Shown piece by piece: positions 2,851 through 62,465 of a stretch of DNA of 64,000 nt. This stretch comes from Styela clava. Lineage: Eukaryota; Chordata; Ascidiacea; Stolidobranchia; Styelidae. The translations under genes and the position numbers were made by a program. Location: positions 9,248,974-9,312,973 of the forward strand of contig NC_135259.1 in NCBI RefSeq assembly GCF_964204865.1. The letters are read 5' to 3'. The notes under the pieces are model-generated. The model saw only the letters and a list, made by a program, of their open reading frames with translations. It was not told the DNA's origin and searched no databases. Position 1 is the stretch's first letter, and each line of letters starts with the position of its first letter.

Positions 2851-3185
2851 AATGAATCTATGTAAGTTTTTGACAATGTTTATATTGTGTATTGATTATA
2901 ATATTTCATATTTTACTAAAAATAAATGTGGAATTTTCATGCAAAATCACTTGGAATTTTTTCCATATTCATTGACTGACCAAATTTCTATTTGAATATC
3001 TATGGTAAATTCAACAATGAATCAATGTAAGTTTTTGACAATGTTTGTATTGTGTATTGATTATAATATTTGATATTTTACTAAATATAAATGTGGAATT
3101 TTCAAGCAAAATCAGTTGGAATTTTTTATATATTCATTGACTGATCAAATTTATATTTGAATATCTATGGTAAATTCAACAATTT
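2851..3185. repeat. Two-copy tandem duplication, 165-bp unit
   Basis: Copy 1 runs from 2851 to about 3015 and copy 2 from 3016 to about 3185. Both begin AATGAATC and end GGTAAATTCAACAAT. They differ at roughly a dozen positions, so the duplication is fairly recent. Non-coding; it lies about 500 bases upstream of the lipocalin start codon. Confidence 0.85.
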
Positions 3186-6441: not shown

Positions 6442-9400
6442 CTACATTTTTGTTTCCGTATAGTAATCATTTTCTTCTAACGTTTTACCTCCTTTCGTGT
6501 GATGCCGTTTCGCTTCTATTATCATTGCTCCGAAGAATATTGCGTTGGATACTGTGCACCCAAGTATCAAATACATAACATTGAAAGGATCTAGTTGAAA
6601 TAAGAATCCTCCAAACGGCAGAAGTATCATGCTACCCAAGGCTTGTCCTGCTGAGAATATAAAAATGTAATGGCCAGACATATTGGTGTATTGTGAAGTC
6701 CACGAAACTCCAGCAGGGTAGATTGTTGCTTGAAAAAATCCGAATAGGAATGTTACAGCCCACGTGATGCCAGCCACCCACTCTCCAAATATACATACAA
6801 TTATCATAGAAGCTATAGTTCCACACAAGTCTACAATAATTATAGTCTTTGGTTTGAATTTCGTCATCAGATATATTCCAACCAAACGTCCAGATCCAAA
6901 TCCAAGCCAATAGAGAGAGTTTATCCACGTTCCGTTTGTAGGCTAGAAAAGAGAAATAATGTTTTGTTTTTAAACTAAATGTAACAAGATTTTAGCTAAA
7001 AGGCAGTAAAAAGTATACGGTTCAGACTGAAAAAGACCTGAAAAGGGTTATATCTTATTTCAAAAATGGTCAAAATATTGAAGTAAAAATAAAACACCGT
7101 GTTACTTTTCATATTTCTATACTTTTATTTTTAATCACATTGTGTCAAGTCAATAATATTTTTATAAAATAAGGGGTGTCTCAAAAGTAAGTATACACTT
7201 TTAATTTTGATTTACTTTTCAGGTACTCATCATAGAGTGTTTATTTCTTCATAAAACTTAGTATGGATAAATGGTAAAATTTTGGTATTGTTTGCATTTT
7301 TCATCAACCCGTAGAATGACAAGAAGATTACCCCCAAGAAATGACGTGCAGGATTGTTGTTTGGCAAAAAGCATATAAATCGGTAAGGAAAACTCAGCGC
7401 CTCTTTAACGGAGAATTTAGAATTCATTCGGCTCTGAATGTTTTTCTCAGAGCGTCTTCCTGATATTTATGTATCAACTACAGATCCAGTATCCATAAAT
7501 TTACGATGAATTGCATGTATTGTTCGTCGTGTAGGGGCCAAATTAATTCCAAATTCTCTGTTAAACAGTTTGCCTTACTGATTTATAGGCTTCTTGTCAA
7601 TTTTGCACCTCATTTCTTGGGTTGTTCTCCTCGTCATTCTGTGGGATGATAAAGAATGCAAACAATTCCTAAATTTTACTACTCATCCATACTATGTTTT
7701 CTTAAGAAATGAACGCTCTATAATGAGTACCCAAAAGGTGAATCAAAATCAAAAGTGTATACTCACTTTTGAGACAACCTTTATTTTAATAAAATACTAA
7801 TTATCCTGAAATATTCCAACTTTTATATTTACCGTGAAGCATAGTTCCGAGCAAATTGAAACCGAATAGATATAGCTTTGATAAGCAGTCTCTCCAGCCA
7901 CACAAAAAAAGTAGTAGATGCATACAAGAATAAATAGAACAAGAACTTTTGATACTCCTTCTTCTTCCCGATCTTCTGTTACTTCATCTTTAGTTTCCCT
8001 GAACCCGATTATTGATAAATTAAATTTTCAGTTAATAAAACATAAAGATATCAGGAAAAATATTTGAAATTGTGTAACAAATTTGTTTTCTAAGTTAATT
8101 TCGATAAGTTAAATAAATTACAGCACTTGCATCCATATTTGCCTCATTTACACTTCTATGCGTATATGGGCAAATAAAATATTATAGTCTCGAGTGGATG
8201 TAATAAATTATGAATGCTTGAGGTACGTATTAATGACCACACAAAATTTTTAATCATAATCAAAAAATAAGTTATTTCTAAAAAGTCTTCATCTATCATT
8301 CGAGCTTGTAATCAAAGTTTGTATTCTCATTTAATGAAAGTAATTTAGAAATTCGGATACATATCGTTTTATTACCATCGAGTTATTTTTAAAAGCATCT
8401 ACCTGACTCGATCTTCCACTTTCAACAATCCCAACACAACAAATATTATAGTAACAACCACAAGAACAACTCCACATATTAGATATGACCAAACAATTGG
8501 ATTGACCCCGCTCGTTTCCGCATCTGTCGACTATCCATAAAAAAAATTGTTTGGTATCATTATAATAGCACGTCAATATAAGACGAATGATATATATTTG
8601 TTATATTTAATTCGACTAATGAGATGGAAAAGTTACAAAAAATTGAACTATAAATCCAGCTTTTGTTAAAAAGATAAAATGAAGAAAAAAGTTCACTGAC
8701 GCGAACTTACCCCATAATTTGGTACTGTGCTGTTATTTGCTATTGTCTGTACAATTTTGCAATTGTCGCTATCTTCAGGACATATCTCTTGCTGGTCTTG
8801 CTCTTTCAGAAATGGTTGTGCTACGTGAAAAAAAAACAATAATAACAGGTACACTTCTGGCTAATTCATTATAAAATAACGTATTGAAGAATATTGTCTT
8901 GTAGAAAATACACGATGTTACTTTAGTGGAATTTTCTTTTCTTTTTCCTGCACAAACTTTGACTCTCAACGAAAAAATATTTTTCTTCATTTTATATATG
9001 TAAATGATAATGTTACATTTACTTTGGTTCAATATATTAATTCGAGTTTATTTCTCATTTAATTGTTCAGCTCAATTAAAATTACTTCTTTGAAGTTTCT
9101 ATACCGAGTATATATAAATATCATATTATATTACCTATCAGAGGGGCAAAAAACGCTCCCACTGCTATTGTAAAATGGTATGCTGCAATATGTGGTCTCG
9201 ATTTTTCTTCTCCCCAAATTTGTAAAACCAATGCTTGCATTCCTGTGAAGTATAGTCAGTTTTTCTTACTTTTGAAGGAGTATACGGAAAATACTGCGGA
9301 ATTTACCCCAAATCTGAGTTTGCAAATTGTAAAGTATTACAAATTTTGTTCATTTCTCAGATTAGTTGAAAATGAATAGGATATTTTTATTCAGTTAACC

Positions 9401-14030: not shown

Positions 14031-14473
14031 TATTCTTCGAAAATTCATCATAAGGATACAACGAGGCCTATATTTTTTTTTTCTATTGTATGTGGTCAAT
14101 TCATTACTTTAAACATCGTTCCTCAAAAACTACCCTTCGAAACACAAAAGAAAATTGAATCAAGCATTTGAGCTTTATTTTCTACATTTATTTCATACAT
14201 CTATCACCGGTAATGAAAACACCAAATAAACTATTCCAAACAACGTTATATCTGTGACTTGTCAGAAGCAGAAATGAATAGATGTTATTATACTTGTTTG
14301 AAATATTTAACGAAAAAATCAAACTTTAATTGCAAGAGGCATGCACTGAATGAGTTATTTACTGGTCGTAATTATTAATTGTTCAAGTGTATTTAGCGGG
14401 GAGAAATCAAACATCATAAAGTTTTTTTTCTGGTGATAAGCATCTTTCTTTATCTGGTTTAAAATTAAATTCT

Positions 14474-17400
14474 TCACATCGTCTTGTGATGATAATGGTG
14501 ATGATGATGTGTAAAACATCTATTGACAACGTCCTTTGTAGAAACGATATCTGAAAAAGGGGGAATTCACGGTTAACACAATTATATTTTCTTATAAAAA
14601 AGAGTAATCTGAAGTAAAATTCATTGTCGGAGACAAACGAGGAAGGATAAATATGACAAGTTACTTTTGCACATCTTGAGTGTAATCGACCGTTGTTGCT
14701 TAAACAGAAATTAAATGAAATACTGAGTTGATGAATTTCTTATGAGTGCTACAAGTTTCTAGGAAGAAAAATCGTTGCTTAAAATGAATTTTGATACTAA
14801 ATCTCATGTTGAAAATACGCGGTTTCAATATTTTCAAATTTCATATTACTTACGTTTCACTTAATGCGCAATGCATGCATTTATTTGCTTCACTCTGGAA
14901 CAGAATCTCTCCGTCTTCTAAAAACCCTGTAGCAACGCATACTGGATCAAATTCTCTAGTACAATGTCCCCTTTTCTCCTTTTCATTGCAGTTCTGTGTC
15001 AGAAATAAATGTTTGTAAATTTTTGTTAGCCTGGATTACTGCACCTAATTGTTCCGATTCTGATTGCTTTGTAACAATAAAAAAAAACAGGAGAGACGAA
15101 AAAAACAAATATCAGACTTTGTCACTTTCACAACGTAAGACAGGAGTAAATTATCTAATTAGATATTGCTGTTTTGTGGGCTGGTACATACCAGCTGCTG
15201 TGTTTTTAACAAAATTACCAAAAACTTTTTTTTAAATCATCTTTGACTTATTGTCTGATTGAAAATAGGCCGAGGAAACCCTTGTGCAATAGATTAAATG
15301 TGTTTTATTATCTGAATTGCTTTTAAGTGTAGCAAGTTTAATAACAGTCAAAAATCTAATATCTATTTGATAATATTCAAACAATATGCAGACACTTGCG
15401 CCAGAACCCTAGGGTGACGCGGAACACCGAATGGAAATCATTGTCCAAACAACTCTGATTATTATTTTTCGATATGCGTAATTAAGAATATCATGACTAA
15501 GGTATTGAGTAAATAGGCGCGAACGAATATAAGAATTACGAATTACTGAGATCGAATACCATATGCAAATAAATCAAAAGTTCCATGCCAGAAATAAAAA
15601 TTTAATAATAAGTATCTTACATAAAGCTCAAGGTGTTCCATCATTTCTAAATGAGAATTAAAGGAATAAAAAAATCATTAGAACAACAATACTATATTTG
15701 ACATTATGCAAGCAGATTTTTCATATTAAAAATATTACGAAACAAATAGCAAATAGGTCGGGAGAAAAGGCAGTGAAAGCTATTTATTTATTGAATAGTA
15801 AAGTATTCAAATATGTTCAAATGTAAAATATTTTCTCTGAGTCATTGCCTATTCATCATAAATTTAATCAAAATCTCTGCCTACAATTAAAAATTGTAAC
15901 ATTAAAAAAAGTACCTTTCTTTTTTGCCTCAATGCATTCGGCCTTGGGAACGCAAATACGTTCATTTGGACTCTTTTGCATCTGTCCTTCTGGGCACGAG
16001 CAGTAATCCCCAAACTTGCATTGAAGTGTGCAGGGTGAATTTTCTCCTTTCATATTTGGATTATCGCATGTTCCTTCACATGGTTCGCAATCAGAGTATG
16101 TACTTCCAGCAGGACACATTTCTTAAAGTAAGGTTTTGGCACATAAATATTGTTACAGAAGTATGGCAATATTTTATAGCTGATTTGAATTAATGATATG
16201 AGTTTTAATATGTCAGCCACACATAACCACAACATGATATAAATTCCAGTATATTGATGTTTTAGAACAACATCATTACAACAATCATTAGAACAACAAT
16301 ATTATATTTTACATTATGCAAGCAGATTTTTTTTATAAAAAAATATTACGAAATAAATAGCAAATAGGTCGGGAGAAAAGGCAGTGAAAGCTATTTATTT
16401 ATTGAATAGTAAAGTATTCAAATATGTTCAAATGTAAAATATTTTCTCTGAGTCATTGCCTATTCATCATAAATTTAATCAAAATCTCTGCCTACAATTT
16501 AAAATTGTAACATTAAAAAAGTACCTTTCTTTTTTGCCTCAATGCATTCGGCCTTGGGAACGCAAATACGTTCATTTGGACTCTTTTGCATCTGTCCTTC
16601 TGGGCACGAGCAGTAATCCCCAAACTTGCATTGAAGTGTGCAGGATGAATTTTCTCCTTTCATATTTGGATTATCGCATGTTCCTTCACATGGTTCGCAA
16701 TCAGAATATGTACTTCCAGCAGGACACATTTCTTAAAGTAAGGTTTTGGCACATAAATATTAATACAGAAGTATGGCAATATTTTATAACTGATTTGAAT
16801 TAATGATATGAGTTTTAATATGTCAGCCACAAATAACCACAACATGATATAAATTCCAGTATATTGATGTTCTAGAACAACATCATTACAACAATCATTA
16901 GAACAACAATATTATATTTTACATTATGCAAGCAGATTTTTTTTATTAAAAATATTACGAAATAAATAGCAAATAGGTCGGGAGAAAAGGCAGTGAAAGC
17001 TATTTATTTATTGAATAGTAAAGTATTCAAATATGTTCAAATGTAAAATATTTTCTCTGAGTCATTGCCTATTCATCATAAATTTAATCAAAATCTCTGC
17101 CTACAATTAAAAATTGTAACATTAAAAAAAGTACCTTTCTTTTTTGCCTCAATGCATTCGGCCTTGGGAACGCAAATACGTTCATTTGGACTCTTTTGCA
17201 TCTGTCCTTCTGGGCACGAGCAGTAATCCCCAAACTTGCATTGAAGTGTGCAGGGTGAATTTTCTCCTTTCATATTTGGATTATCGCATGTTCCTTCACA
17301 TGGTTCGCAATCAGAGTATGTACTTCCAGCAGGACACATTTCTTAAAGTAAGGTTTTGGCACATAAATATTATTACAGAAGTATGGCAATATTTTATAGC

Positions 17401-17996
17401 TGATTTGAATTAATGATATGAGTTTTAATATGTCAGCCACGCATAACCACAACATGATATAAATTCCAGTATATTGATGTTCTCATTTATAAATAAAACA
17501 TACAGTGTAAAACCCAATGCAAGTAAACTTAGTCAGTCTCTAAACAAGATTGTAAATCATACTTGCTTGTGCTTCCGCAATGCAAGTTGAAATCTTGACA
17601 CATTCAATATCGTTTTCGCTTCTTTGCATGTAACCCTCCGGACAAGAGCAGTAATACCCTGTCAAACAAATGAGAGGACAAGGTGCTGGGTACCCGTTCT
17701 GCAATGCTTTGAAATAACCTAAATCGAGACTGTCACATGTACCACCGCAAGGTTCGCAATATTGATTAGTTCTTCCATCAGGACACATAGGTTGACTCTC
17801 TGTAAAAAAAATCAAGATGCTGACCAGTTTGCATTACATATTTTTTGTTAATCTTGTCATATTATTTCGTTTGAGTATGAAATATGTGAAACATGGATGC
17901 TCATAACAGACATCGTTGAATTTAATGATTTTCCATCAAATACTTACCAGCAGAAACTGAGAGAAAGAAGCAGAATGAAATTAGATAGAAATTCAT
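14474..17996 (-). CDS. Secreted protein with four TIL domains and a His-rich tail, six exons
   Basis: Exons in reading order: 17996-17948 (signal peptide MNFYLISFCFFLSVSAG), 17799-17563, 17341-17135, 16731-16525, 16121-15915, 14550-14474; 327 residues. Each intron interrupts at phase 1, so every TIL exon is symmetrical (1-1). Exons 2-5 each encode one trypsin-inhibitor-like domain with ten cysteines, ending in a CSCPEG core and a final CV/KxxxC pair. Domain 1 differs from the others and has a longer loop with PAPCPLICLTGYYC. Domains 2-4 are essentially identical (domain 3 has Ser for Pro in the loop before Cys5). The last exon encodes THHHHHYHHKTM and a stop. TIL domains typically inhibit serine proteases outside the cell, but some are structural, so protease inhibition is likely, not shown. 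A decayed duplicate lies next to it (21747-22435). Confidence 0.85.
15681..17482. repeat. Three tandem 610-bp units, each carrying one TIL exon
   Basis: Units run 15681-16290, 16291-16900 and 16901-17482 (last one cut short). Each begins GAACAACAAT and holds a whole 207-bp TIL exon with its flanking intron. The copies differ by only a handful of bases in 600, including intron, so the amplification is recent or maintained by gene conversion. The first copy differs a little more at its left edge. Confidence 0.95.
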
Positions 17997-20330
17997 CGTG
18001 TTCGTGAGAAGGCAAACTATTAGTTGTCCTTGGTTTATGAGAATTGAATAACTGAAATATGCAAAATTAAACATTTTTATTTTAAACATAAATACACTTT
18101 TTAAAAATATGATCTCATTGGTTCAATTGATATAGAAAAGCATCAAAAGTTCTTGAACCAGTGGTAAAAATTCAGATAGAGCCACCTCGTTGTTTGAAAG
18201 TATACCAATGATGCTAAACAAGGATATTGCAACATGTCGAATTGGCAGACAAGAGTACACAAGTCTACAAATGCTAACTGCATATAGATGCTTATATAGC
18301 TTTCGCACATCATTTCATTCCATAAAAAATCGTAACTGGTTGACACTTCTAGGAAAAGGCCAGGAAATAAATTCAGAGAAGAAAATTGAATTGTATTCAA
18401 TAAGCAAAACTAGTCGTCTTTCTTTCTGACCACTTTAATTTTGAAAGAATAGAAATCGATTCACACGTTCGGGTATTAATAATATAAACCTTTTAAGTAC
18501 TTCCACAAACTTCTTGGAATTTGGAACACTAATCTCCTGCCCTAAGAAGCGTACAATGGGCTGTCTAAGATACTATAAAGTAACAGGAAATTATAAGGAT
18601 TTATGTAGTTAAATGGAACAATGGACCAGCAAATTTCTTACACTTTTTGCAAAACACTTTCAAGAATTAGAATAAAAAAGAGAAATTCTATGAGTTCATT
18701 GCGTTGTCATTTTTCTAGGAATATATATTCAATGAATGGCTTGTGAAACCCATATTCTTAAAACCGAATCACACGACCGCTTACAATTAACTCAGCTGAA
18801 ACTAATAGGTGTATAACGCTGCACTTTTTCAAAGCATGCTCAAGACAACGTCCTGATATTTCAACTGAAGGTGGCCATAGTACTAACGGAAGAGTTACAA
18901 AGAGCCAATAGCTCTCGGAAGACACGATAAATAAAAGCAATTCAATGCGACACGTTCGCGTAGGGTTTTGTAATTCATCAATTCTAAAATAGCATCACGT
19001 TTTAAAACAAGGGCCTGTATATTTTGTATTTTTTTTGAAATTCGTTTTGAACAAATCCCTACGTTCGCGTAACTCTTTTCGATCGGGAAATGCAATTTTA
19101 AATACGTCCTGTATTTCCAGAAAAATCAAATTTGACACAACAAGATATAGAGGAAAACATAAATAATATATTATACTGGTTTTTGTTATATTCGGGAGAA
19201 AAATGAATGCAATTGCTTGTCAAATTTTTTACACTTTGAAATAGCTTGAAGAAATTTATTGCCAGTGACGAAAGAACTTTATTTAAAATTTATTCAATTC
19301 TGCTCATTAAAAATAATAAACATCAATATAAAGCTGTTGAGGTTTTATATTTCGTTGAATATCACTGCAGCTTGTGGTAATAATATTTGGAATTAAAGTC
19401 TAATTAATATATTATAATGACTTTTTGAACTCAACTCACTTCTTATTGCATGTGCATTGTATAAAATACGAGGAATACGGAGAAAGTAATAGAAGATAGA
19501 GGGTATAATAGGAACGGATCAACTTTCCAATTGTTAAATTATATATATTTCCTATGTCATAAGTTGTAAATTTTCGAAGTATGAACGAGCGTTTGGTAGT
19601 ATAATTCAAAGAATATATTATAATTTTACAAATCCCTTCCGTGGAGTACTATTCCCAGACACTTGGCTGGTAGGTTGGATTCAAAAGGTTTGTATTGAAC
19701 TGTCTAAAGTCTACCCCACATAACGAAAAATCGTGTTTCTTCATTAAAATACGGCCTATTGCGCCATATTAAAGTTTTGCTTCCAACCAAACATGTATCC
19801 ACGGTTGCTGTTGTGTGTGATTGTTCCATATTTAACATATTCATGAGTCCACACTCATATATATAATATTTGTTAAGCTTAGGTAATCAAAAAATGAGTC
19901 ACGTTTTATATAAAGTTATTCTGATTGTTACCACACTCTACTCTTACTCAAATCTACTCATTACCATTAAACTGTATCGTTGCCGTGAGTGACCATTAAT
20001 GGATTACAAAGATCAGACACTCCAGGCCTGCTCATACGACTATAGAAAAGTTGGGGTGAGAAGTAACTCGCGCGTATATTTTACCGCAACCTTAAAAAAC
20101 GAATAGTACTTCACGTACAAATGTTGCTCATTTCATTTAAAACAAGCCGTTGTGATAGTACCGAAGAAGCTACGATTAGACTTAAATATACAACGCGAAT
20201 TTTTAAAATAGGTAATTCGAATTTATAAAACCGAATGACATTTACGCTTCGCTGAGTGGTACCAGGGGGCACAAAAATAACATTGGTATTTAGATCACAT
20301 GATATGCACATTGCATGATACACTTATTAT
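17997..20330. other. Upstream region of the TIL gene, duplicated at 22.4-24.5 kb
   Basis: No coding exon is seen. The segment matches 22436-24480 along its length in the same orientation, for example TTGAACTCAACTCACTTCT at about 19427 and 23600, and CACGTACAAA near 20113 and 24285. It probably holds the TIL gene promoter just above 17996, but no clear TATA box is visible. Confidence 0.6.
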
Positions 20331-21296: not shown

Positions 21297-21746
21297 CACT
21301 ACAACGAGTCGTATATCTTTCTCATGAAACACATTACAAGACCCATGCATACTTTCAGTTGGGGGGTGACAGCATAATATTTTTAAATAATGTAGCTTTG
21401 TATGTGGTCAATTCATTATTTTTTACACCTCTGTCTCAAAAACTACACTTCGAAACAAAAAAGGAAACTGACAAATGTATATATGGTATATTTAATACTT
21501 TTATTTTATGTATTAATCATAACATCGGTCGAAAATACAGCATATATATATATATATGATTCCGAACAATGATATATCTGTTTTTAAATATCTGTGAATG
21601 GTCAAAAGCAGCAATGAATAGATGTTATTTTACGTGTCCCAAGATACAGACTATAATTGGAGCCCCAATCAAACTTTAATTGCAAGAAACGTACACTATG
21701 AGTTGTTCAAAGATCTTTTCTCATAATTTTATGAGTCTATTTTTAG

Positions 21747-22435
21747 TTATTTTTCTGGAGATAAGCATCTCTCTTTATCTGGAGTAAAATGGAATTCGTC
21801 ACATCGCCTTGTGATGGTGCGTAAAACATTTAAGTTATTTACAACGTCCTTGATAGAAACAAAATCTGGAAAAGAGAAATTAGTGGTAACAAAAATTTGT
21901 AATATGAAGTACAATTCATTCTCGAACCAACATGATATAAATACCATTATGATAATAAAATATACAATGGCAAATCCAATGCAAGAAAACCTGCTAAATC
22001 ATACTTGCTTGTGCTTCCGCAATGCAATTTGATTCCTAACACATTCAATATCGTTTTTGCTTCTTTGCATGTAACCCTCTGGGCAAGAGCAGTAATGCCC
22101 AGCCCTACAAACAAGGGGACCAGCTTCTTGGTACCCGTACTGCAATAATTTCAAATACCCTGAATCGGGCCTCCTCTCATGTGCCACCGCAAGGTTCGCA
22201 ATATCGATAAATTTTCCATCAAGACACGTAGGCTAAAGTTCTGTAAAATTTAAGATGCTGACAAGTTAGCATTACATATTTTTCGTTAATCTTGTCATAT
22301 CATTTTATTTGGGAATGAAATATGTAGACCATAGGTGCTCATAACATTCGTCGATAGATTTTAATAATTTTCCACTAAATACTTACCAGCAGAAACTGAC
22401 AGGATTCAACAGAATTAAATTAGATAGAAATTCAT
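21747..22435 (-). pseudogene. Decayed single-TIL paralogue of the 14.5-18 kb gene
   Basis: It keeps the layout signal exon (from 22435), one TIL exon (about 22240-22003, matching exon 2 of the intact gene) and last exon (from 21865), with splice sites still visible. It is broken in several places. The signal exon has a stop (MNFYLI then TAA), and the TIL exon has an early TAG plus a one-base loss just before the IANLAVAHE stretch that shifts the frame. The first TIL cysteines are therefore lost from frame. The last exon has lost the His run and reads on to a later stop, ending CLSPEK. Only about 120 bases separate TIL and last exons, so the three amplified units were never here or were deleted. 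Confidence 0.85.
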
Positions 22436-24699
22436 CTTGTCGTTAGAAGGCAAATTATCAGTTGTTCTTTGTTTATGCAAATTGAATAACTGATATATAT
22501 ATATATATGAAATTAAACATTTTCGCTCTACTTTTACTTTTAGGAAGCACCTATCCTAAATCAGTGGTAAAAATTCAGATATAGCCACCTCGTCGGGTAA
22601 ACGAAAAAGTATACCAATGCCAGGGCAATGATGTTAAACAACAATATTGCGACATGTCAAATTTGGTAGAAAAGAGCACACAAATCTACAAATGCAATCT
22701 GCTTATCTTCTTTTCTGACGACTTTTTATTCCAAAGAATGTAAATCGATTCACACATTCGGGTATTAAAAATATAAACCTTTTAAGTACTACCACATATT
22801 TCTTGGAATTTGGAACACTATACTTCTGCCCTAAGAAGCGCACAATGAACTAAGCTTAATTTGACCACAGAGTCACAGGAAATTATACTATAAATTAATA
22901 GGATTTCCGTAGTTTCGTGGTTCATAGGCACAATGAACCAGTAAATTGTGTACACTTTCCACAAAACAGTTTCAAGAATTAGAATAAAAAAGGAGAAATA
23001 CTATGAGTTCATTGCGTTGTAAATTTTCTAGGAATATATATATAATGAATGGTTTTTGAACCCATATTCTTAAAAATAATTTACTCAACTGAAACTAATA
23101 AATGTATAACACTGCCCTATTTATAAAAAAAAATCCTAAAACCATGTTCTGATATTTCAACTAAATGTGGACTTAGCACTACCGGAAGAGTCACAAATAA
23201 CTAATAACTTTAAATTAAAGCAATTTAATTCAGCACTCTCGCGCAACAGTTTTTGTTCGCAAAGTGCTCTATTTCAAATACTTCCTATATGTCCAGCAAA
23301 AGTAAATTTGACACAACAAAATGTATAGGGAAAACATTGATAATATATATATTTTGGTATATTCAGGAGAAAAATTGAATGCAATCGTTTGTCAAATTTT
23401 AGTTATAAGAAATATTTTTTAAGAAATTTATGGACAACTGGCGGATGAACTTTATTCAAAACCGATTTTGATTCTGTTTATTAAAAATAATGAATAGAAA
23501 AATAAAGCTATTAAGGTTTTATTTTTCTGTGAATATCAATGCAGCTTCTGTTAATAATATTTAGAATAAAATGTCCAATTGATATATTATAATGACTTTT
23601 TGAACTCAACTCACTTCTCATTGTATGTACATTGTATAAAATACGAGGTATACGTGGAAAGTAATAGGATATAGAAGGTATAAGGGGAGCGGTTCAACTT
23701 TCCGACTGTGCATTCAGTTATTATAATTATTTTTCCCATGTCATAAGTTGTAAATTTTCGAAGCATGAACGGGCGTCTGGTATAGTATAATTCGATAAAT
23801 ACATAATAATTTTACAAATTCGACTCGTGGAATACTATTCCTAGATACATGCCATGTGGGTTGGATTCAATAAGTTCGCATTGAACTGTCAAAAATCTAG
23901 CAAAAATAACGACAAACCATGTTTCCTCAATCAAATACGGCCGATTGCGCCGTAATAAAGTTTTGCTTTTAGCCAAATCTGTGTCTACGATTGTTGTCGT
24001 GAATGATTGTTCCATATTTAACATATACACGAGTTCACACTCATATATTAATTGTTTTGGTTGCCCAATCAAAAAAAATGAGTGACATTTTATATAAATT
24101 TATTCTGATTGTTACCACACCCCAAAATCTAGTCATCATTATTAAACTGTACCGTTGCCGTGAGTGGCCATTCATGGATTCCAATGAGCACGCACCTTGC
24201 CCAGGCCTAGTTGGGCCGCTATAGAAAAGTTTGGATGGGAAGTAACTGGCGCGTACACCACCTCAAAAAACCGAAACGTACTTCACGTACAAAGGTTGCT
24301 TGCTTATCTCATTTAAAACGAGCCGCTGTAATAATGGCGAAAGATCTGAAGTTAGATTCAGATATACAACGAGAATATTTAAAAAAAAATCCGAGTTTAT
24401 AAAACTGAATGACTTTTACGCTTCGACGAGTGGTGCCAGGTGGCACACAAAATACAAGTGGTACTTGAATCACATGCATTGGTGTACTTTAGAAATCTGT
24501 GAGGGTCAAAAATATTCAAAATTGCTTCTGTTAAATTGATTTCAGTAATCAAAAAATATAGGATAAATATTTTTTTACCTTTTTGAGTATCGAACCGGTA
24601 TCAATGTTGTAGCAGGACATTTTCTATAATCGGTAATCCGTCTGCCTATAAAATATAATATGATAGATATTAGATAACAAATATACCGATAGCTTGAAT

Positions 24700-31437: not shown

Positions 31438-31445
31438 TATAAAAG
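31438..31445 (+). promoter_or_regulatory. TATA box of the methyltransferase gene
   Basis: TATAAAAG lies 50 bases before the ATG at 31488. A start of transcription about 25-30 bases downstream would leave a 5' leader of only about 20 bases. Confidence 0.6.
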
Positions 31446-31487
31446 CGAACACGCAATGTGAGGATCGTGTATAATTCAAATACCAAC

Positions 31488-32342
31488 ATGACGAAACAAC
31501 TTATCAGATCATATGAAGGAAAGGAGCTCGCGTTGGACTATCTCAAATATCGTCCCTCGTATCCACACCGAATATCAGAAACTATTATGAAATATGTGAG
31601 GTCGAACTTGCCGAATAACTCGAACGATAAATTGGAGAATATGCTAGATATTGGGTGCGGAAGTGGACAAGCTACTACACTTTTTGCCTCCTATTTCAAG
31701 TCCGTAGTGGGAACAGATATTAGTAGTCAGCAAATTGAAGTAGCAAATGAAAATAACAATCACCAAAATATTGAATATCTGGTGGTAAGTGATGGAAAAT
31801 TTCCTGTTGAAGACGAAAGCGTAGATTTTGTGAATTGTGCCACAGCTGCGCATTGGTTAAACATTCCCGAATTTGAGTCCGAGTGCCAAAGAGTTTTGAA
31901 ACCAAATGGCTCAGTTGCTATTTATGCCTACTTGCAAAAGCATATAATGGATGCAGATTCAGGCGAGAACTTGAGCCTGGGAGACAAATATCGTGGAGCT
32001 GTAATGGAATTTTTTATTACAATCAAGGCGCACCCCAACAATTTCATATTAGTGCAAAAATATCAGCCGATATTTGAACAAATGGTTAATCCAACAAAAA
32101 AATGGATTGAAGACATCACTTTCAACAAGTACAGTACATTCGAAACTTTTCTCGGATTTTGGGCGACTATTGGGGAATATCAAGCCTTGATGCGAGATGG
32201 AAAGCCCAAAGTAGACCCTCTGGAAGAGCTTAGAAAAAAGTTGAAAGAAGCATGGGGATATGAAAATTGTAAAGACAGCGATATACGTCTAAAAGTGACA
32301 TATGAAGTATTTATGATAGTGAGCACCAAAACGCCGAGTTAA
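31488..32342 (+). CDS. Class I SAM-dependent methyltransferase, single exon
   Basis: 284 residues from ATG 31488 (context ACCAACATGACG) to a TAA stop. The frame extends upstream to a GTG at 31458, but a eukaryotic start and the TATA box favour 31488. Motif I LDIGCGSGQAT at 53-63 binds S-adenosylmethionine. VVGTDIS at 73-79 gives the acidic residue of strand 2, SVDFVNCATAAHW at 111-123 is motif post-II, and VLKPNGSVAI at 136-145 is the strand-5 region. The fold belongs to the Methyltransf_11 group, which includes fungal Tmt1/Crg1-type trans-aconitate and small-molecule methyltransferases; substrate unknown. No membrane segment or signal peptide is seen, so cytosolic. Being intronless contrasts with the intron-rich neighbours and suggests a retrocopy or horizontally acquired gene. 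ATTAAA near 32387 may signal polyadenylation. Confidence 0.92.
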   Translation: MTKQLIRSYEGKELALDYLKYRPSYPHRISETIMKYVRSNLPNNSNDKLENMLDIGCGSGQATTLFASYFKSVVGTDISSQQIEVANENNNHQNIEYLVVSDGKFPVEDESVDFVNCATAAHWLNIPEFESECQRVLKPNGSVAIYAYLQKHIMDADSGENLSLGDKYRGAVMEFFITIKAHPNNFILVQKYQPIFEQMVNPTKKWIEDITFNKYSTFETFLGFWATIGEYQALMRDGKPKVDPLEELRKKLKEAWGYENCKDSDIRLKVTYEVFMIVSTKTPS

Positions 32343-37309: not shown

Positions 37310-39151
37310 TGGCTATATTTTTATTGCCTACTTTTTGCTACCGCCCGTGACTCACGTTGGTGTAAATTTGGTTTTAGAGATCTTAAACATCTTTCCGAGC
37401 GTACCAGGGATCATCAATCTTCTATGGAGCATCTGGACAATGCAGTAAAATACCGAACATTCGGAAATGTTAATATTGCAGCACAGTTGGATGAAGGACG
37501 CGCGGTTTCTATTCGTCGGCACAACCAAACGTCGAGAAAAACCGCCATGTTCTAGGTCGATTGATAGATGTTTTGAAGTTCATTGGTTGTCACGAGCTGT
37601 CCCTCCGTGGGCACGATGAACGGGCTGGCTCTTCTAATAGAGGGGTATTTTTGGATATGGTGGAATACACCGCATCCCTAGATACAGTATTGAGAGATCA
37701 TCTTGACGCCGCAACTGTTTCGAAAGGGACATCTAAGGATATCCAAAATGATTTGCTCGACTCAATGTATAAAATGTATTTACAACATTTAGCTCTGGAA
37801 ATTGGGAATTGCCAGTTCCTTTCGATTCAGTCTGACGAGACAACTGACATCACGTGCGTTTCCCAACTGGCTGTGATTTTTCGGTTTGTGAAAGATGGTA
37901 AACCTACCGAGATATTTCACAGCTTTGTACCAATCGTTGATCGCACGGCTTGCGGGATATCGGCTGTACTGAAAGAAGTGTTAGAGCCTTACAACGCGAA
38001 GTCAAAATTGATAGCTCAAACTTATGACGGCGCGGCAGTCATGAGTGGGTCGAAACATGATGTTCAAGTTTATATAAAAGAAGATTTACCTTATGCGCAT
38101 TTTTTACATTGTTATGCACACCAATTTAACCTCGTTATTAAAAATATGTGTCTTGATACTCTTGATACCCCTCTCGTCCGTATATTTTTTGCAAATGTTT
38201 CGGGGTTTTCTTCATTTTTTTTCCGTTTCGCCGAAGCGCTCTGACCTCCTTTGCCAGATATGTAGCCGCCGTCTCCCAGCTTGTGCACCAACACGTTGGC
38301 ACTTCCAATCACGCGTGGTGCAGGGCGTGTCCGAAATTAGGTCTGAGCTCATTGAGTGTTTCAATGGCATTCAGAGCTCTCCGGTTTGGGACGAACGCTC
38401 TGTGAGGGAGGCGGTAGGTCTAAAGCGTCTGCTAGAAGATGGTGAGTTTTCATTTTTTCTCGCGTTTTTCTCCAGAATATTCTATCACGTGGATGTATTA
38501 TACGGCGCATTGCAGTCAAGGCTATTGGATGGAGCGTCTGTGCAGTCGTGTATTTCAGACTTCTGCGATGCTGTATCTCGTATCCGGGAAACAATAAAAT
38601 ACGACGACACATGGAGTGCTTCTTTACGCCGCGGGCAAACAACGCAGCGTTTGATTTTGTCTGCAAAGGGATGCTGTGACATTCTGGTGAATCAAATAGG
38701 CGATCGTCTGCGCACTGAACACCTTGCCGCGTTCTCTTTGATGAACCCCAAAATTTTTTCAAAATTTGCGTCAATTTCCCATCCATTTGTTGGCTACTGT
38801 CTCCAAATTTTACCCCATGATAAACGTGGGTAAATTGGAAAATGAATTGCGATGTATATACACCAATCAAACTTTTTTGAACATCACATCAACTTGCGCG
38901 CTCTATGGGTTCCTCATAGATAACACTCTAGTAACTACCTTTGCGGCGTCTGCAAAATTTTCAGCACGCTGAAGCGTAAAAAAACGTATCTCAGAAACAC
39001 AATGAAGCAAGAAAGATTAAATTCCTTGGCTGTTTTATCCATTCACAGAGACGTTATTTCTGGGATGCATGACTTTAATCAGCGCGTTATTGAGCATTTT
39101 GCTTCCAAGAAACCGCGGCGTGTTGCATATGTTCAAGCAGTAGAAGTCTAG
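37310..39151 (+). pseudogene. Broken hAT transposase, ZMYM1/TTF-finger type
   Basis: Frame pieces in order encode a TTF-type zinc-finger remnant (LYFYCLLF, then WCKFGFRDLKHLSER, 37310-37535), the DUF4371 core (LIDVLKFIGCHELSLRGHDE, QSDETTDITCVSQLAVIFR, AQTYDGAAVMSGS, LHCYAHQFNLVIKN, to 38244), and the CAPTRWHFQSR region to 38833. The C-terminal end NTMKQERLNSLAVLSIHRDV stops at 39151. At least four frameshifts separate these, near 37535, in the T-run at 38212-38222, near 38815 and near 38960. The enzyme cannot be made as one chain. I could not pair terminal inverted repeats. Confidence 0.85.
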
Positions 39152-46500: not shown

Positions 46501-48319
46501 CAATGAAATGTTTTAAAATAATCAGGTACAGCAATTCATCTTTCTGCAAAAATATTCTGGAGATAAGTAAGAAATTATCAGAAGACGAAGTTGAACATTT
46601 TCTTCTACAAAGCGGTTCATCACAATTTTTTGAAAAATATCCATTTTTATCTACTCAAGGACATTATTTAACCAGTGATATGAGAAACACATTACAGGTA
46701 TATAGGTTTTTATCAAAACAGATAACAAAACATTCCATAGTCAGATATTTTATCAATTCTTCATTGGTTTATAAACATATTCGAATTCTGTATTGTATTT
46801 TCTTTTTCTTTCGATAGTTTTTGTCGCTGTTTTTAATGATGGCTAATAATATTGAAAATTTGATTCTCCTATATTAAGATATATTCGAGTCTGTATTGTT
46901 ATTGTTTTGTAACGAATTACCCTTCTGTTTTAGGCAAATCCATAGTTTCATAATTGTACATATCCCAAATAGTATAGCTCAGGGTGGTCCAAGGTTGCAA
47001 GATTGAAGGGCTGTATTGACAAGTACCGATAACGACCTCTCAAATCGATCACAGGACGTCATTCCCATAGGCCTTGTTTTGACAGTTTCAATTACAACCT
47101 TGAAATTTCGTGATTTTAGCAAATATCATTCTCGACATTGGTATTAGGAGAAGGGTTTGAATCTCGTAACCCAACTCCAGCACGGGACGTGTTGCGGCCC
47201 GCATGCTAGGGTTCGGACCACCTTGGTATAGCTGGTAACATGCTGGTTGAGTGAAACATGGTCGTTGCTATATATCTGTAAAATTAAATTTGTACGCTTT
47301 GTTTAATAAATACCATTCGGTTCAGACCATGCCATCAGAAATTCTACCAGGACGATTATACCAGGGTAATGCAAAACATGCATTGGATTCATACATCATA
47401 ACATCGCTAGGTAATTATCGAAGTTTTAATCATGTTACTCTTAATTTTAAAATATCCAAGTGGATCTATTTTGCAGCAGAATTTTGGTAAATAACGAACA
47501 ATCACAAAATTTAGCATAAATCATGTTTTACATATAACATTGGTTAATTTCACAGAAGAGAAAAAATATTATCTACCTCAATCTTTTGAAGCTCAGAATA
47601 GAACCTATTTTGGTTTTGGTTTTCTGGACTTCTCTATTCAGTTTAGTCTAGGTATAAATATTTTTGATCGAAAGTAGGTACTTCATTGAAATAGACCCAT
47701 TTTTTCATCAAGATCCATGGATATTGAATAAGTTGACCAAATGAAAGAATTGAATCAGCTGTAAATCAATGTTTGTATACTAGTTGGCTTCAGAATGAAT
47801 GCTTGCATTGCCTTCTTTAAATGAGTCTGTCATATACCTTCTATTTCAGGTATCTCACATATTGTTAATGTCACTCTGGAACATCCAAACAGATTTGAAG
47901 ATACTGTAAAATACTTGCGGATTCAACTTGATGATCGACCTCAAGTTGACCTTCACGCTTGGTTGCCAAGAACCAGTGAATTTGTGCAGTCAGCTATTGG
48001 TAGAGTGAGTATTAAAAGTCAAACAACTGAAAAACATGAAAATGGAAAAGACTCCGGTGACAATCGAACTCCTGGTGATGTGAGCAGTAAAAAAGAAGTA
48101 GTACTTGTTCACTGTAATTTAGGTAGAAGCCGCAGTTCCACTGTAGTTTTAGGATATCTGATGCAAGCGTGTAGGATGACTCTGAAAGATGCAAGTCGAT
48201 TACTAAAAGACTGCAGACCAACTGTCCGCCCTAACATCGGTTTTCTTGAACAGTTACTGCAATATGAAAAAGAGGTGTTTGGTAAAAATGTATCTGATTT
48301 GAATGATCTGCCTTTTTAG
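43566..48319 (+). CDS. STYXL1: STYXL1-type dual-specificity phosphatase with rhodanese-like domain, six exons
   Basis: Exons: 43566-43700, 45189-45508, 45984-46100, 46526-46697, 47326-47410, 47850-48319; 432 residues. Introns are GT...AG with matching phases. It starts MGNGSSK, an N-myristoylation signal. A rhodanese-like domain spans about 115-235, with YLLLLDCREKSEYEAAHI around 143-160 and FEKYPFLS later. The catalytic domain starts with MPSEILPGRLYQGN (about 250) and contains YLRIQLDDRPQVDL (general acid Asp304 or 305), VVLVHCNLGRSRSS with nucleophile Cys365 and Arg371, then MTLKDASRLLKDCRPTVRPN. The order of domains and the EKEVFGKNVSDLNDLPF end match STYXL1 (MK-STYX), whose human form lacks the catalytic Cys and is inactive. 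Here HC-X5-R is intact, so activity is expected. Longer than the human protein (313) through the N-terminal extension and a hydrophilic insert at about 330-357. A second possible start is the ATG at 45192. Confidence 0.88.
46980..47225. mobile_element. hAT-type MITE in STYXL1 intron 4, 246 bp
   Basis: Termini are CAGGGTGGTCCAAGGTTG and GGTTCGGACCACCTTG. The flanks GTATAGCT (46972-46979 and 47226-47233) are a perfect 8-bp target duplication. The GCGGCCCGCATGC stretch near the right end is typical of these elements. Non-coding; splicing of the host gene appears unaffected. Confidence 0.92.
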
Positions 48320-52087: not shown

Positions 52088-54777
52088 GTGCGGCGGGGGA
52101 GGATGGCCCCCCTTATTATTTATATTTTGAAAATTATCTATATTTCGATAACCTTTCTTTGAATATTCCCAAAACTTAGCCAGTACATACATAAAGGGCT
52201 AAACTCTATATCCACATGGCGGCGTCCGCCAGTCGCCAACCATTGCAACAGCACAAACGTTTTTATGCAAAAAAAATGAGGGGAAGTTAAACATATGGTC
52301 GGATATGACGGACATGTGATAAAATCGCATCAAAATACTAAAAATGCTTTCCGTTTCTCAGCAGAATATCAAAATAAACAATGTATTAGAATTTTTTTGG
52401 CCAATTCGAAAATTTCCCCTATGTCCATCTTACCCCACAAATTTTTGAAGTTGTGAAGTTTATTTTCTTTTTTCCTCCTAGAAGCTGCAACTTTCTTAGA
52501 CGAGCTAGATGAAATTATTTCTACAAGCGCTGTAGCTTTCTTTGACAAGCTAGATGGCATTGTTTTTGCGAGAGCTGACAGTTCGGCTACATATTTCTCA
52601 CTAGTTAATACTCTAACTCCCGTCTGAATGGCTTTCTTCCTTCGCTTCTTGGCTCTCTGAGTGGCCACTGGAAGAGGAAAAATATCTTCAAATGATTCAT
52701 CTGATAAACTGGTGCTATCAGGTTCTTTGCTATTTTCTTGCCTCAAAGAATCACAAATTTTCTCGGAAGCTAACTGAACTCCTGATGAAGTTCTACTTGA
52801 CTTCGGTAGAGAGCAGCATGGTTCACCAGTGACACTTTCTACCTGTGTCGTGGTGTTAACTTCATGAGATGGTATGTCGTAATCTCTATTTGTTATATTA
52901 TCTGACTCACCAGATCTCACTATTGCTGGCGCAAATGCATGCTCTGGAATTTGCTCAATATCAAGTGGATACAGACCAGTAACACAGAAAGATGTTACTG
53001 CGTTGCCGACTGTGTCAACTTTGTAATAAGCTCTGCTGAAGAGTGTAGGGAAGTCAATTCTGGATATCCCTGCTCCAGGGTTGTTTTGATGATGAACTCG
53101 AACTGCTTTTTTGAAATGATTCTTTAGTAGTTTAAAATGCACTTTGTCCAGAGGTTGTAAATAGTGACTCGTATGAGGCGTCATACTGACTATCTCAACA
53201 TTGTGGCTTTTAGCATATTCCAATACTTCAAGGCTGTGAGTGTGGGAGTGATGCTCATCCACTACAAGAAGTGTTTTTCCGCAGTCACTTCTCTTGCTTG
53301 TGCAAGAATGTTCCATCCACGCAAGGAATAAATCTTAATTTATGTATCCCGATTCACTGTACTTCACTATTGAACCAGCAGGTAAGCCACAATCCAGTGC
53401 TGGGTTCACTCTCTTTCCTTTATGTATAACCATTGGAGGGATATAATCTCCAATAGCATTCACACCCACAACGATAGTTTGAGACAGCCCACGCCCTCCG
53501 GTGGTTATTTGGGTTGATGACTTCGATCCCTTTTCTCCGACGATATTTTTGACACCAGGAACGATGCTAAGACCAGTTTCATCAACGTTATAAATTTTGC
53601 TGGGCTGATCATAAAGACAGAGGTCATTCATGACACTTTCTAACATGTCAAAATATCTTTGAACGATCGGTTTGTTCAGGTGGATTGCTCTCTGAATAGA
53701 AAGTGGCTGAGGTTCTCTTATTGGTATAATATCATTGTGCCGAGTTCTGAAGCCAGCCCACCAATCTTTACCGGACATTTTCAGAGACTTTAAAAAGTTG
53801 TTTTTGATGCCATTGCGTATAGCGAACTCGTAAGCTAATTGTCTTATGACCTTTACTGTTAGTGGAAATCCTCTCCGCTCGAAATCCAGAATATGCTTAA
53901 CAAAATTTTCTTCTGCATTTCTTGTAAGTATAGAACTAGGACCAAGATGTTTTGATGCCACCATCATCTTGACAGAGCTGAACACATGCCTCAGTAGAGT
54001 TGTTCTGGGAACGCTGTGAGTTCGTGCTGCACTCTTCAACCCCTCGCCTTTTTGGACAGCTTCCACTGTCATTCTCATGTTAGAATTTGACCAGGAGCCT
54101 CTGTTTGATATTCTTTGGTATATTCGGGCCATTCTTTTAGATTTTCTTTTCCCATGCATCCAAATCTTGCATCTGGTAAAAACATGACAGTACAATGGGG
54201 TAAGATGGCCACCCCCAATAACTTTTTTGATAAGATTATTGAAATTCTCCCAGAGGTGTTTAGACAAGTAAAAGCAATAACAAAATAAAAGAGAAGACTT
54301 TCAAGTATATTATCACGAAAAACGGGCTTGAATGGTCAAATTGAATAAAAGACCCCAAAAAACGCAAAAAATTTATTACCCCTCATAACCCCCCCATTTT
54401 TACATGATCACTTGCTGAGGGCCATAGTTAGTTGCTAACTGGCACTAGTCGCACAGTTAGTCCTAAATCATACAAACTTACCAACAAAAGCGCGATACCG
54501 AGTTCCTTGCCTGAAAATGAGCATATAGTGCTTCCTAGAAAAACGTGTGCTTGCTAAATGCCCTTTTTTCACCCTTCAAAAATCACAAGCCACGTGGAAA
54601 GATACACAACTGACAAACCACGCCAAGCGCCCAACCGAAATGGCTAGAACGAATTCTCTCCTTAGCAACGAACTCACCAATGGCATTTGCACAATCAAGC
54701 CTCATAAGATGTCACCAATAGGTCAATTTGAAAAAAGAGTCCATCTAACCCCGTGTGTCTATCTTCCCCCGCCCTAC
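52088..54777 (-). mobile_element. Pogo/Tigger-type DNA transposon, 2.7 kb
   Basis: Left end GTGCGGCGGGGGAGGATGG and right end, read inward, GTAGGGCGGGGGAAGATAG form terminal inverted repeats, and TA flanks both sides (52086-52087, 54778-54779). The single encoded protein is a Tigger-type transposase on the minus strand. Repeated GATGG and CCCC tracts near the ends fit subterminal binding sites. Length is typical for a full-length Tigger element. Confidence 0.85.
52369..54135 (-). pseudogene. Tigger/Jerky-like DDE transposase with one premature stop
   Basis: Reading from Met 54135 (MARIYQRISNRGSWSNSNMR), the protein has an N-terminal helix-turn-helix (GLKSAARTHSVPRTTLLRH), a CENP-B-type DNA-binding region (GKDWWAGFRTRHNDII) and the DDE domain. 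Catalytic acids are visible in IYNVDETGLS, LLVVDEHHSH and SHYLQPLDKVHF. A lone TAA at 53335-53337 interrupts the frame between GYIN and DLFLAWMEHS; otherwise the frame is open to 52369, ending in a Ser- and Lys-rich tail. An earlier in-frame start at 54267 exists. Related host genes (jerky, TIGD) are domesticated copies, but the inverted repeats, TA flanks and stop argue that this is a recent transposon. Confidence 0.88.
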
Positions 54778-55000: not shown

Positions 55001-55103
55001 TGCTGATATATACATGCTATACATACATGCTATATACACATGCTGACATTCATAATGTAAAAATATGCATATAAATATATATTTTTTCATTGTGATTAGT
55101 TCT

Positions 55104-56665
55104 ATTATTCCCGACAGGGGAAACAGTGAATTGTGCTATGAATTTGTATTTCTTTGTTATATCAGGAAACAGCAATTTAACATATGACAGTATTGTATAG
55201 TTTAGCCATCACCAGATTCGTAGAAAATAATTTTAATAATACGCATTGTCCAGCTTTTTATTTTTTATTTAGTTAAACAAAGTATACAGACGACAGATTA
55301 GTTCCGTCAAATCCTTAACATCAACAATACGATCGGTTTGGACGATGTCATGCGAATCACACCACAATATAAAATCAGAATAGCCCACTTGGTTTGTCGT
55401 GCAATGGAGTTTTAAAACTACTAAACTATGTTTGTAATATATCTTTTATTTTGCGCTATATCGATTATCAATGACAATGTTTATTTACATAGCATTTCGT
55501 GTCTTGACAAACAATGACGTTACTAACAAAGTCGAACAATGAAAATGTGATGAAATATCAAAATTTCAGATAGATATTGGGATATCATATTTACACGAGG
55601 AACGAAGGAGCTAGTATAGAATACTCAAGACCAAATGTTCAACAAATTCGGGCATCCTAGTAAAGAGAAACGCATGTCGTCATGTATTGAGGCTAAATGT
55701 TGCCACACGCAACGTTGAATTTTAATGGCAAAAACTCGGGTCAACACCCTAGTTACCAGTATATTGTTTGTGTTTGTTATGATGGATAAAACATGCATCT
55801 AGGAAAATACCACGAAGTATCTGACATTTGGGCCCAAAACCAAAAAAATTACCACAAGTTAACGCATATGAAAAATACACTTATTTGGATATGTTTCAAA
55901 CATCTATATACATCTATTATCTATCTATACATCTATATTTATTAAATTCTATTACTATATGTAAATACTTCATTCTTAGGTGACGTTATATCATTTTTTG
56001 AATGCTAAACTGTATTTTAGGACCATTAATTAAATTACAAATCAGTCGTGAAACCATACAATACAGAGAAATATTCATTCAACCCCGACAGAAAACTTGG
56101 TTATATTTTGCAACAATTTTATATTATGAAGAAATATCTATGTCAAGGCAAACATTAGTCAGTTTCTAATAACACACTCTATATATAACTAGACAGGTAC
56201 GTGACATTCACTGATGAATAGATCAAAATTTAAGCCCCCAATATCGCTAGAAAACTATAATTAAGATAAGAAAAAATAACATTTTGCGTCAGACAGTCTT
56301 GAAATGTTGTGACAAGGCAATCAAAATTTCATTGTGGTTGGTTGTTTGTGTTATAGACAATATGTCAGTCGATAATGTGTTTCTTAAAGAATATTGGAAT
56401 AAAAGCATTTTGAAACAGAACGTGTATTGAAATATAGTGCTAATTACATTCGACCAAAACGTGAAAGTGACATTTCTAAATGTAATGTAACATTGACCAG
56501 GCAAAAATTGTGAACAATAAATATAATTTTAAATTGATGAAACCATAAGGTTGTGATACAACACCAAACTTATTGATTGACCTCCATTAAACACAGCAGA
56601 GAATTCCGTAATTGTACGATTGTACATATTGTTAAATTGTACATATATACATAAAATTATTATTA
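55104..56665 (+). repeat. Left arm of a large inverted repeat
   Basis: This arm matches the reverse complement of 62466-64000. Checked anchors: GTATTGTATAGTTTAGC (55190) with its complement near 63895-63915; CAAACACAAACAAT-type string near 55770 and 63330; TCAGTCGATAATGTG (56362) and 62727. By eye about 85-90% alike. No coding frame is seen. The inner limit is near 56665, just after TATATACATAAAATTATT. Confidence 0.85.
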
Positions 56666-61690: not shown

Positions 61691-62465
61691 ATTTCGTAAC
61701 CGTCAGAATTTTCAATGTGGTCGCTTGTTTAGATTGCCCATAGGTAAAAGGGATTAGATACAAAACGGTATACAAAATTACAAAATTAAGACGTTCAAAA
61801 TAAAATATGAAAATACTCAAAGTGCAAAGTTTTGTGATTTCTCTTGGTAAGATCAAACCAAACTAGACGAAACAGAAAAAATGACTTTGAATGTAAAATA
61901 CATCAAAGTTTAAATTAGTATAGAATATTTTTTTATATTCTAGCTCTTTTTAATATTCATAGGTCGTTCCTACTGGCTGTGTAGAAAAACTTATCTACGG
62001 GGCGCTATCGCATCATCTTTGAATTCCTAATCTGTATGCTTAATGGGTCAGGGCCGGATTTACCATTCGTCAATGTAATTTTAAGCATAGGGGCCTCGAC
62101 ATTGTTCATTTTTGGGTCGTTTTTTTTTATTAGTAAAGGTATTTTTCAGTGAATAACTAATTCAAACTTTTATAAAACTGATATTTGTTCAATTCAACCA
62201 TAATAATGTCTTTGTTTTTTTCAAAAAATAAGAAAATATCGATATACAGGAAATATACCTGCTAATTAACCTGAGCAACAATGAATCTAATAATTATTAT
62301 ATTTTTTACTATTCCACATAGCCTGGGGACTCCCATTATCTTAATTCGACCCTAAATGGGGTAGTTTACGTTTACACTACCTTAGTACTCAAGACCTAAT
62401 AATATCGGAGCCAACATTCAGTAAGCGTTAGTTGCCATAAGTCCTCAACCTAAATAATTTTATGT
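61691..62465. other. Inner right spacer of the inverted repeat
   Basis: No gene. Includes 62270-62365, the inverted partner of 59699-59800. Confidence 0.5.

Follow-up and report, generated by a model that had tools for sequence, protein, structure and literature searches.

Three Tandem Copies of a Frame-Neutral, Putatively TIL-Type Exon in a Predicted Compound Protease Inhibitor Gene of Styela clava

Introduction

Inhibitors composed of many TIL domains are known from moths, where the compound proteins BmSPI43, 45-49 and PxSPI26-33 carry from 3 to 17 such domains (PMC3278429, PMC5309989). The locus described here resembles them in the number of its predicted TIL-type domains and, for some of the moth proteins, in Leu at P1; in BmSPI48 and PxSPI32, however, the domains differ at P1, whereas here three near-identical domains are accompanied by a Kazal-like one (PMC3278429, PMC5309989). 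Tandem multimers engineered from BmSPI39, also an inhibitor of TIL type, displayed higher activity against subtilisin and proteinase K than before multimerisation (PMC10000547). Natural addition of a domain was described for brasiliensin and infestin of Triatoma, in which the added inhibitor domain is near-identical to its neighbour and has the same reactive site, exon duplication being invoked; unlike the present case, these domains belong to the Kazal rather than the TIL type, and only one extra domain is concerned (PMC2653937). Symmetrical exons gained or lost singly, with unequal crossover as the proposed mechanism, are also exemplified by the zinc-finger exons of piccolo b in teleosts, although these are frame 0 exons present in 8 to 16 copies and belong to a synaptic protein (PMC3484663). 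A different use of tandem exons in an inhibitor gene is represented by serpin-1 of Manduca, where they are alternative (PMC5691223). Exon duplication as a way of building inhibitor arrays is already established, and the locus considered below adds a case with an unusually legible joint between the copies.

Here, we analysed a stretch of 64,000 nucleotides of the Styela clava genome (hereafter, the window), for which an original prediction, made from the letters alone, had proposed a very recent tandem amplification of a symmetrical TIL exon within one gene. In the 1.8-kb stretch in question, traces of a founding joint with its filler, of a subsequent homologous step and of homogenisation would all be preserved, offering what may be a snapshot of the growth of a multi-domain inhibitor.

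Results and Discussion

Layout of the Tandem Array

On the minus strand, three head-to-tail copies of a 589-bp segment, which comprises one exon and flanking intron, occupy about 15675-17483. In self-BLAST of the window, positions 15667-16873 match 16277-17483 with 97.7% identity over 1209 bp, and positions 15667-16261 match 16887-17481 with 98.5% identity over 595 bp; comparison of the junctions with both flanks places the true edges of the array at about 15673/15675 and 17483. The 610-bp period is made up of the 589-bp copy and a 21-bp filler at each of the two internal junctions, so that self-BLAST together with junction reading gives the following units and joints:

16895..17483, minus strand: tandem unit U1, first in transcript order
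16874..16894, no strand assigned: 21-bp filler between U1 and U2, similar to segments of the sequence at the left breakpoint
16285..16873, minus strand: tandem unit U2
16264..16284, no strand assigned: 21-bp filler at the U2/U3 junction, identical to the U1/U2 filler
15675..16263, minus strand: tandem unit U3, last in transcript order

The tripled exon array is thereby confirmed as observed: the three near-identical units had been predicted with the right period, and their near-identity does extend, as was claimed, over intron as well as exon. An array that extends over 1.8 kb, with head-to-tail units about 98% identical to each other, is not explained by chance. The array is absent from the list produced by Tandem Repeats Finder because the longest period there was 500.

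Predicted Gene and Its Exons

The predicted coding sequence of 1104 nt is distributed over eight exons and forms an open frame with a single terminal stop, GT donors, AG acceptors and phases that agree throughout. In the predicted order, a signal peptide is followed by one TIL-type domain, three further copies of a TIL-type domain, a 26-nt exon and a Kazal-like domain:

17948..17996, minus strand: exon 1, with ATG and a signal-peptide-like start (MNFYLISFCFFLSVSA), ending in phase 1 at a GTAAGT donor
17563..17799, minus strand: exon 2, first TIL-type domain (TIL1), 237 nt, 10 Cys, phase 1-1
17135..17341, minus strand: U1 exon, 207 nt, phase 1-1, TIL-type domain with 10 Cys
16525..16731, minus strand: U2 exon, 207 nt, with one synonymous and one Pro-to-Ser change relative to U1 and U3
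15915..16121, minus strand: U3 exon, 207 nt, same sequence as the U1 exon
15621..15646, minus strand: predicted 26-nt exon, phase 1 in and phase 0 out, linking the TIL-type array to the Kazal-like exon
14854..14993, minus strand: Kazal-like exon, with five of the six Cys
14520..14550, minus strand: last coding exon as modelled, supplying the sixth Kazal Cys and the stop

All three unit exons are enclosed between TTTAAG and GTACTT, and the domain encoded by them is 50% identical to TIL1 at the protein level. The proposal that each unit holds one symmetrical exon agrees with the model, in which this exon enters and leaves in phase 1 between AG and GT sites; since its phase is 1-1 and its length a multiple of three, any number of units would keep the frame, as had also been anticipated, with the splice sites taken as predicted.

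Less certain is the 3′ part of the model. The interval between the array and the Kazal-like exon contains 13 stop-free exon candidates of fitting phase, five of which, having a commoner donor, were compared; the 26-nt exon has a GTAAGA donor and 14 of 17 pyrimidines before its acceptor against at most 8 in the other four. This exon, and hence the link of the array to the Kazal-like domain, is a prediction only. Direct splicing of the last TIL-type exon to the Kazal-like exon was rejected because their phases, 1 and 0, disagree. As to the last exon, its acceptor was picked so that the Kazal-like domain ends with Cys and stop, and another acceptor further downstream, within a stretch also conserved in the pseudogene described below, could serve instead.

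Identity of the Repeated Domain

All 10 Cys are retained in each of the four TIL-type domains, with the spacing 8-2-3-11-3-5-1-13-5 in the unit and 8-2-3-18-3-5-1-13-5 in TIL1. Corresponding values are 8-2-3-7-3-4-1-13-5 for the chymotrypsin/elastase isoinhibitor 1 of Ascaris (C/E-1; 1EAI) and 8-3-3-8-3-3-1-13-5 for BSTI. The Ascaris protein is thus alike in having 10 Cys, in a spacing that differs from the unit in two loops only and in Leu within a Cys-X-Leu-X-Cys motif, and unlike in being a single domain, with a weak sequence score to the unit. A phmmer search against PDB (E up to 10) returned two matches only, 1eai_C and 1hx2_A, both TIL-type inhibitors and both weak (E 0.084 and 4.2). When sequences were shuffled 3000 times with Cys fixed, the score of the unit was reached with p 0.001 against Ascaris C/E-1 and 0.003 against BSTI, and that of TIL1 with p 0.008 and 0.002, respectively, which points to a likeness not confined to the Cys.

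Profile searches were less favourable. The Pfam TIL model, searched up to E 10, gave no match to any of the four. TNFR_nem matched all four (best E 0.001) and the EGF-type models one (cEGF, E 0.0015), in both cases below the cut-off. No improvement over the single query was obtained when a profile of the four domain rows was run against PDB: an unrelated hypothetical protein came first (E 0.38), and a MASP-related chain also stood ahead of 1eai_C, in third place of 10 (E 1.0), and of 1hx2_A, in sixth (E 1.2). The two inhibitors were surrounded by MASP chains, whose matched stretches we take to be EGF modules. Comparison of the unit protein with viral contigs gave no match. Judged by its Cys pattern and its closest relatives, the repeated domain is probably of TIL type, the best matches being weak; its original naming as TIL is in keeping with the Cys spacing and the closest solved structures, yet goes unmatched by the Pfam model of that name.

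The loop between Cys5 and Cys6 reads Thr-Leu-Gln in U1-U3, Pro-Leu-Ile in TIL1 and Pro-Leu-Met in the Ascaris inhibitor, and its Leu is presumably the P1 position of the TIL family. Leu at this presumed P1 would imply a chymotrypsin-, elastase- or subtilisin-like target and not trypsin. Since the Cys-Thr-Leu-Gln-Cys loops of the units are identical, the extra domains most likely add the same inhibitory head, changing valency or dose rather than specificity.

Kazal-Like Domain

The Kazal pattern consists of six Cys with a core of C-x7-C and C-x2-C. All six and the core are present in the Kazal-like stretch, which reads CNEKEKRGHCTREFDPVC...KCMHC in one exon and receives its sixth Cys from the next predicted exon. 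Its score with Pfam Kazal_1 stays below the cut-off (E 0.017; 15.5 bits against 21), and the best PDB match is a Kazal inhibitor (E 0.012, in two short pieces). Predicted together with four TIL-type domains in one gene, the domain at 14520-14993 would make the product an inhibitor of mixed type. No protein combining TIL and Kazal domains is found among the inhibitors listed in the Bombyx table of PMC3278429, nor among the rows listed in the tables of PMC5309989 (Plutella, rows to PxSPI52) and PMC5691223.

Filler and Origin of the Array

Along the plus strand of the window the 21-bp filler has two occurrences only, starting at 16264 and 16874, and neither flank of the array contains it. The whole filler (21 of 21 bases) can be covered with 6-mers taken from 80 bp around the left breakpoint (p 0.0003-0.0007 by shuffling and 0.002 against random 80-bp contexts), weaker measures of the same similarity giving p 0.002-0.011 for the local score and 0.012-0.049 for the longest common word. 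For the right breakpoint 13 of the 21 bases are covered (p 0.06-0.13 by shuffling, 0.04 against random contexts). A filler of this kind would be expected if end joining or template switching had made a templated insertion. Both joints carry the same filler, which implies a single founding joint copied when the third unit arose, most simply by unequal homologous exchange; one founding duplication followed by such exchange is therefore the order of events suggested by the joints themselves.

The proposed mechanism includes three steps. (a) Break repair or a template switch would have duplicated the 589-bp intron-exon-intron segment and left the 21-bp templated filler, as the joint itself suggests. 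(b) The third unit would then be the product of unequal homologous exchange involving both copies. (c) Further exchange or gene conversion may have homogenised the units, for which the evidence, given below, is moderate. In C. elegans, helq-1 mutants build up tandem duplications that range from about 100 bp to 10 kb, and patchwork templated insertions are met when HELQ-1 is lacking (PMC8654963). Duplications of this kind, attributed to polymerase theta or template switching, are comparable with the present one in size class and in the templated insertions, although the insertions there lie at deletion junctions, while here the pathway is deduced from one old joint (PMC8654963).

Taken as a whole, the locus is probably the gene of a secreted serine-protease inhibitor of compound type, in which the second TIL-type exon was tripled through steps a-c, and we hold this reading with good confidence. 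The proposed protein would consist of a signal peptide, four TIL-type domains and one Kazal-like domain, as predicted from the modelled exons.

Divergence and Homogenisation of the Units

Over the 592 columns common to the three units, substitutions number 8 between U1 and U2, 8 between U1 and U3 and 14 between U2 and U3, and two indel columns are private to U2. Variable sites fall twice in the exon (2 of 15; 207 columns) and 13 times in the intron (385 columns), and greater conservation of the exon is not supported, since Fisher p is 0.10. These figures fit the earlier view that duplication or exchange at the DNA level, and not selection on the protein alone, accounts for the near-identity. 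Both exonic changes belong to U2, and the encoded domains differ at one residue.

The differences are unevenly distributed. Between U1 and U3, which are not adjacent, a run of 408 columns that takes in the whole exon shows no difference (permutation p 0.00065), the other two of the three pairs tested for the longest identical run being unremarkable (p 0.62 and 0.27). Five of the eight U1-U3 differences are concentrated in the last 72 columns, beside unique flank (5/72 against 3/520, Fisher p 0.001), the 72-column window having been picked after the data were seen; a scan for the densest window gave p = 0.26, 0.015 and 0.09 at 30, 60 and 100 columns. Private changes of U1, U2 and U3 amount to 1, 7 and 7, a poor fit to a strict clock (p 0.07 each). 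If the inside of the array is homogenised by exchange more than its edge, an identical U1-U3 interior and a divergent edge are what should be expected, and homogenisation of the units is likely, few as the variable sites are. Mean identity may accordingly understate the age of the first duplication, and the founding event may be older than the "very recent" one originally assumed: that term draws on the mean identity of the copies, but their divergence is uneven, from 408 identical columns to 5/72 at the edge.

A more far-reaching version, which we put forward tentatively and at less than even confidence, considers the array as an active coding minisatellite, in which the number of 610-bp units varies between individuals by ongoing unequal exchange. 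Inhibitor valency would then be set by copy number at no expense to the reading frame, and the domains would be kept uniform by this very exchange. The frame-neutral exon means that copy number could vary in populations.

The array might also be an old triplication in which gene conversion has maintained uniformity, a reading that is compatible with the three-step one in everything except age and possible though on the unlikely side. The identity of U1 and U3 over 408 columns next to a 7% divergent edge, and the uneven private changes, would both be accommodated by it. Against it are a divergence of just 7% even at the edge, the small number of sites, the post hoc choice of the window and the A/T-rich composition of the edge, where mutation may be faster.

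Other Explanations of the Three Copies

The three exons might serve as alternatives, either mutually exclusive or cassette, as in Manduca serpin-1, so that one unit or a variable number of units would enter each transcript. Precedents in inhibitor genes are provided by Manduca serpin-1 and PpSPI1 (PMC5691223), and skipping of any unit exon would leave the frame unchanged. Choice among three exons whose products differ by one residue would, however, yield almost no diversity, and the splice-site sequences are identical in U1, U2 and U3, so we regard alternative use as improbable.

Little credence is also given to an assembly artefact, according to which the true chromosome would carry fewer or more units and the three would be alleles or a collapsed array as rendered by the assembler. 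Near-identical tandem repeats are a well-known source of assembly error, and 610-bp units of this kind are prone to it. Against this, the window contains no N, the copies differ at 15 sites and 2 indel columns over 592 columns, and the joints are precise, with a filler foreign to both flanks that would not arise if alleles had been falsely joined.

Pseudogene Duplicate

The inhibitor gene and its upstream region take part in a segmental duplication recognised in pieces, 14086-20301 against 21398-24476, with identity of 79-83% in the three longest pieces and 78-94% in all. The second gene copy, located near 21.4-22.5 kb, is represented by a decayed sequence:

21755..22439, minus strand: pseudogene copy, in which the signal-peptide exon contains a stop, the TIL1 exon is frameshifted and a deletion is present

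The stop is a TAA inside the signal-peptide exon, and the TIL1 frame is shifted by two deletions, each of a single base, and by an insertion. The intron that precedes U1 (to about 17450) continues there directly as last-intron sequence, starting near 14653 with an ambiguous overlap of 16 bp at the join, and the last-exon stretch follows; the end of the Kazal-like domain was found weakly by protein comparison (E 0.018). A deletion that begins in the intron before U1 and reaches the last intron seems the simpler reading. The older duplicate does lack the amplified exon, as originally noted, but this is no argument for recency: because the pseudogene deletion spans the region, absence of the exon cannot date it. 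Use of the duplicate as an outgroup for dating the array was rejected on the same grounds.

With the neighbouring copy already a pseudogene, non-functional amplification within a decaying gene may be envisaged, and it is very unlikely given eight modelled exons that form one open frame with GT/AG sites, and four TIL-type domains that all retain their 10 Cys.

Other Features of the Window

A separate tandem duplication occupies 2851-3183, where a 165-bp unit is present in two copies with 94% matches. Two 1.5-kb stretches, 55103-56661 and 62453-63999, form an inverted pair with 85% identity, perhaps a mobile element. Transposase-like pieces at 37495-38244 and 52369-54300 correspond to DUF4371 and to DDE_1 with a Psq-type HTH, the latter just below the cut-off; we assume the DUF4371 piece to be hAT-like and the DDE_1/Psq-type HTH piece to be pogo-like. 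Other recognisable coding stretches are an open methyltransferase frame of 299 aa at 31443-32342, a dual-specificity phosphatase stretch at 47825-48319 and a major-facilitator transporter stretch at 6442-6942. Over the whole window the observed/expected ratio of CpG is 1.01, and G+C content ranges within 0.29-0.43 in 2-kb steps.
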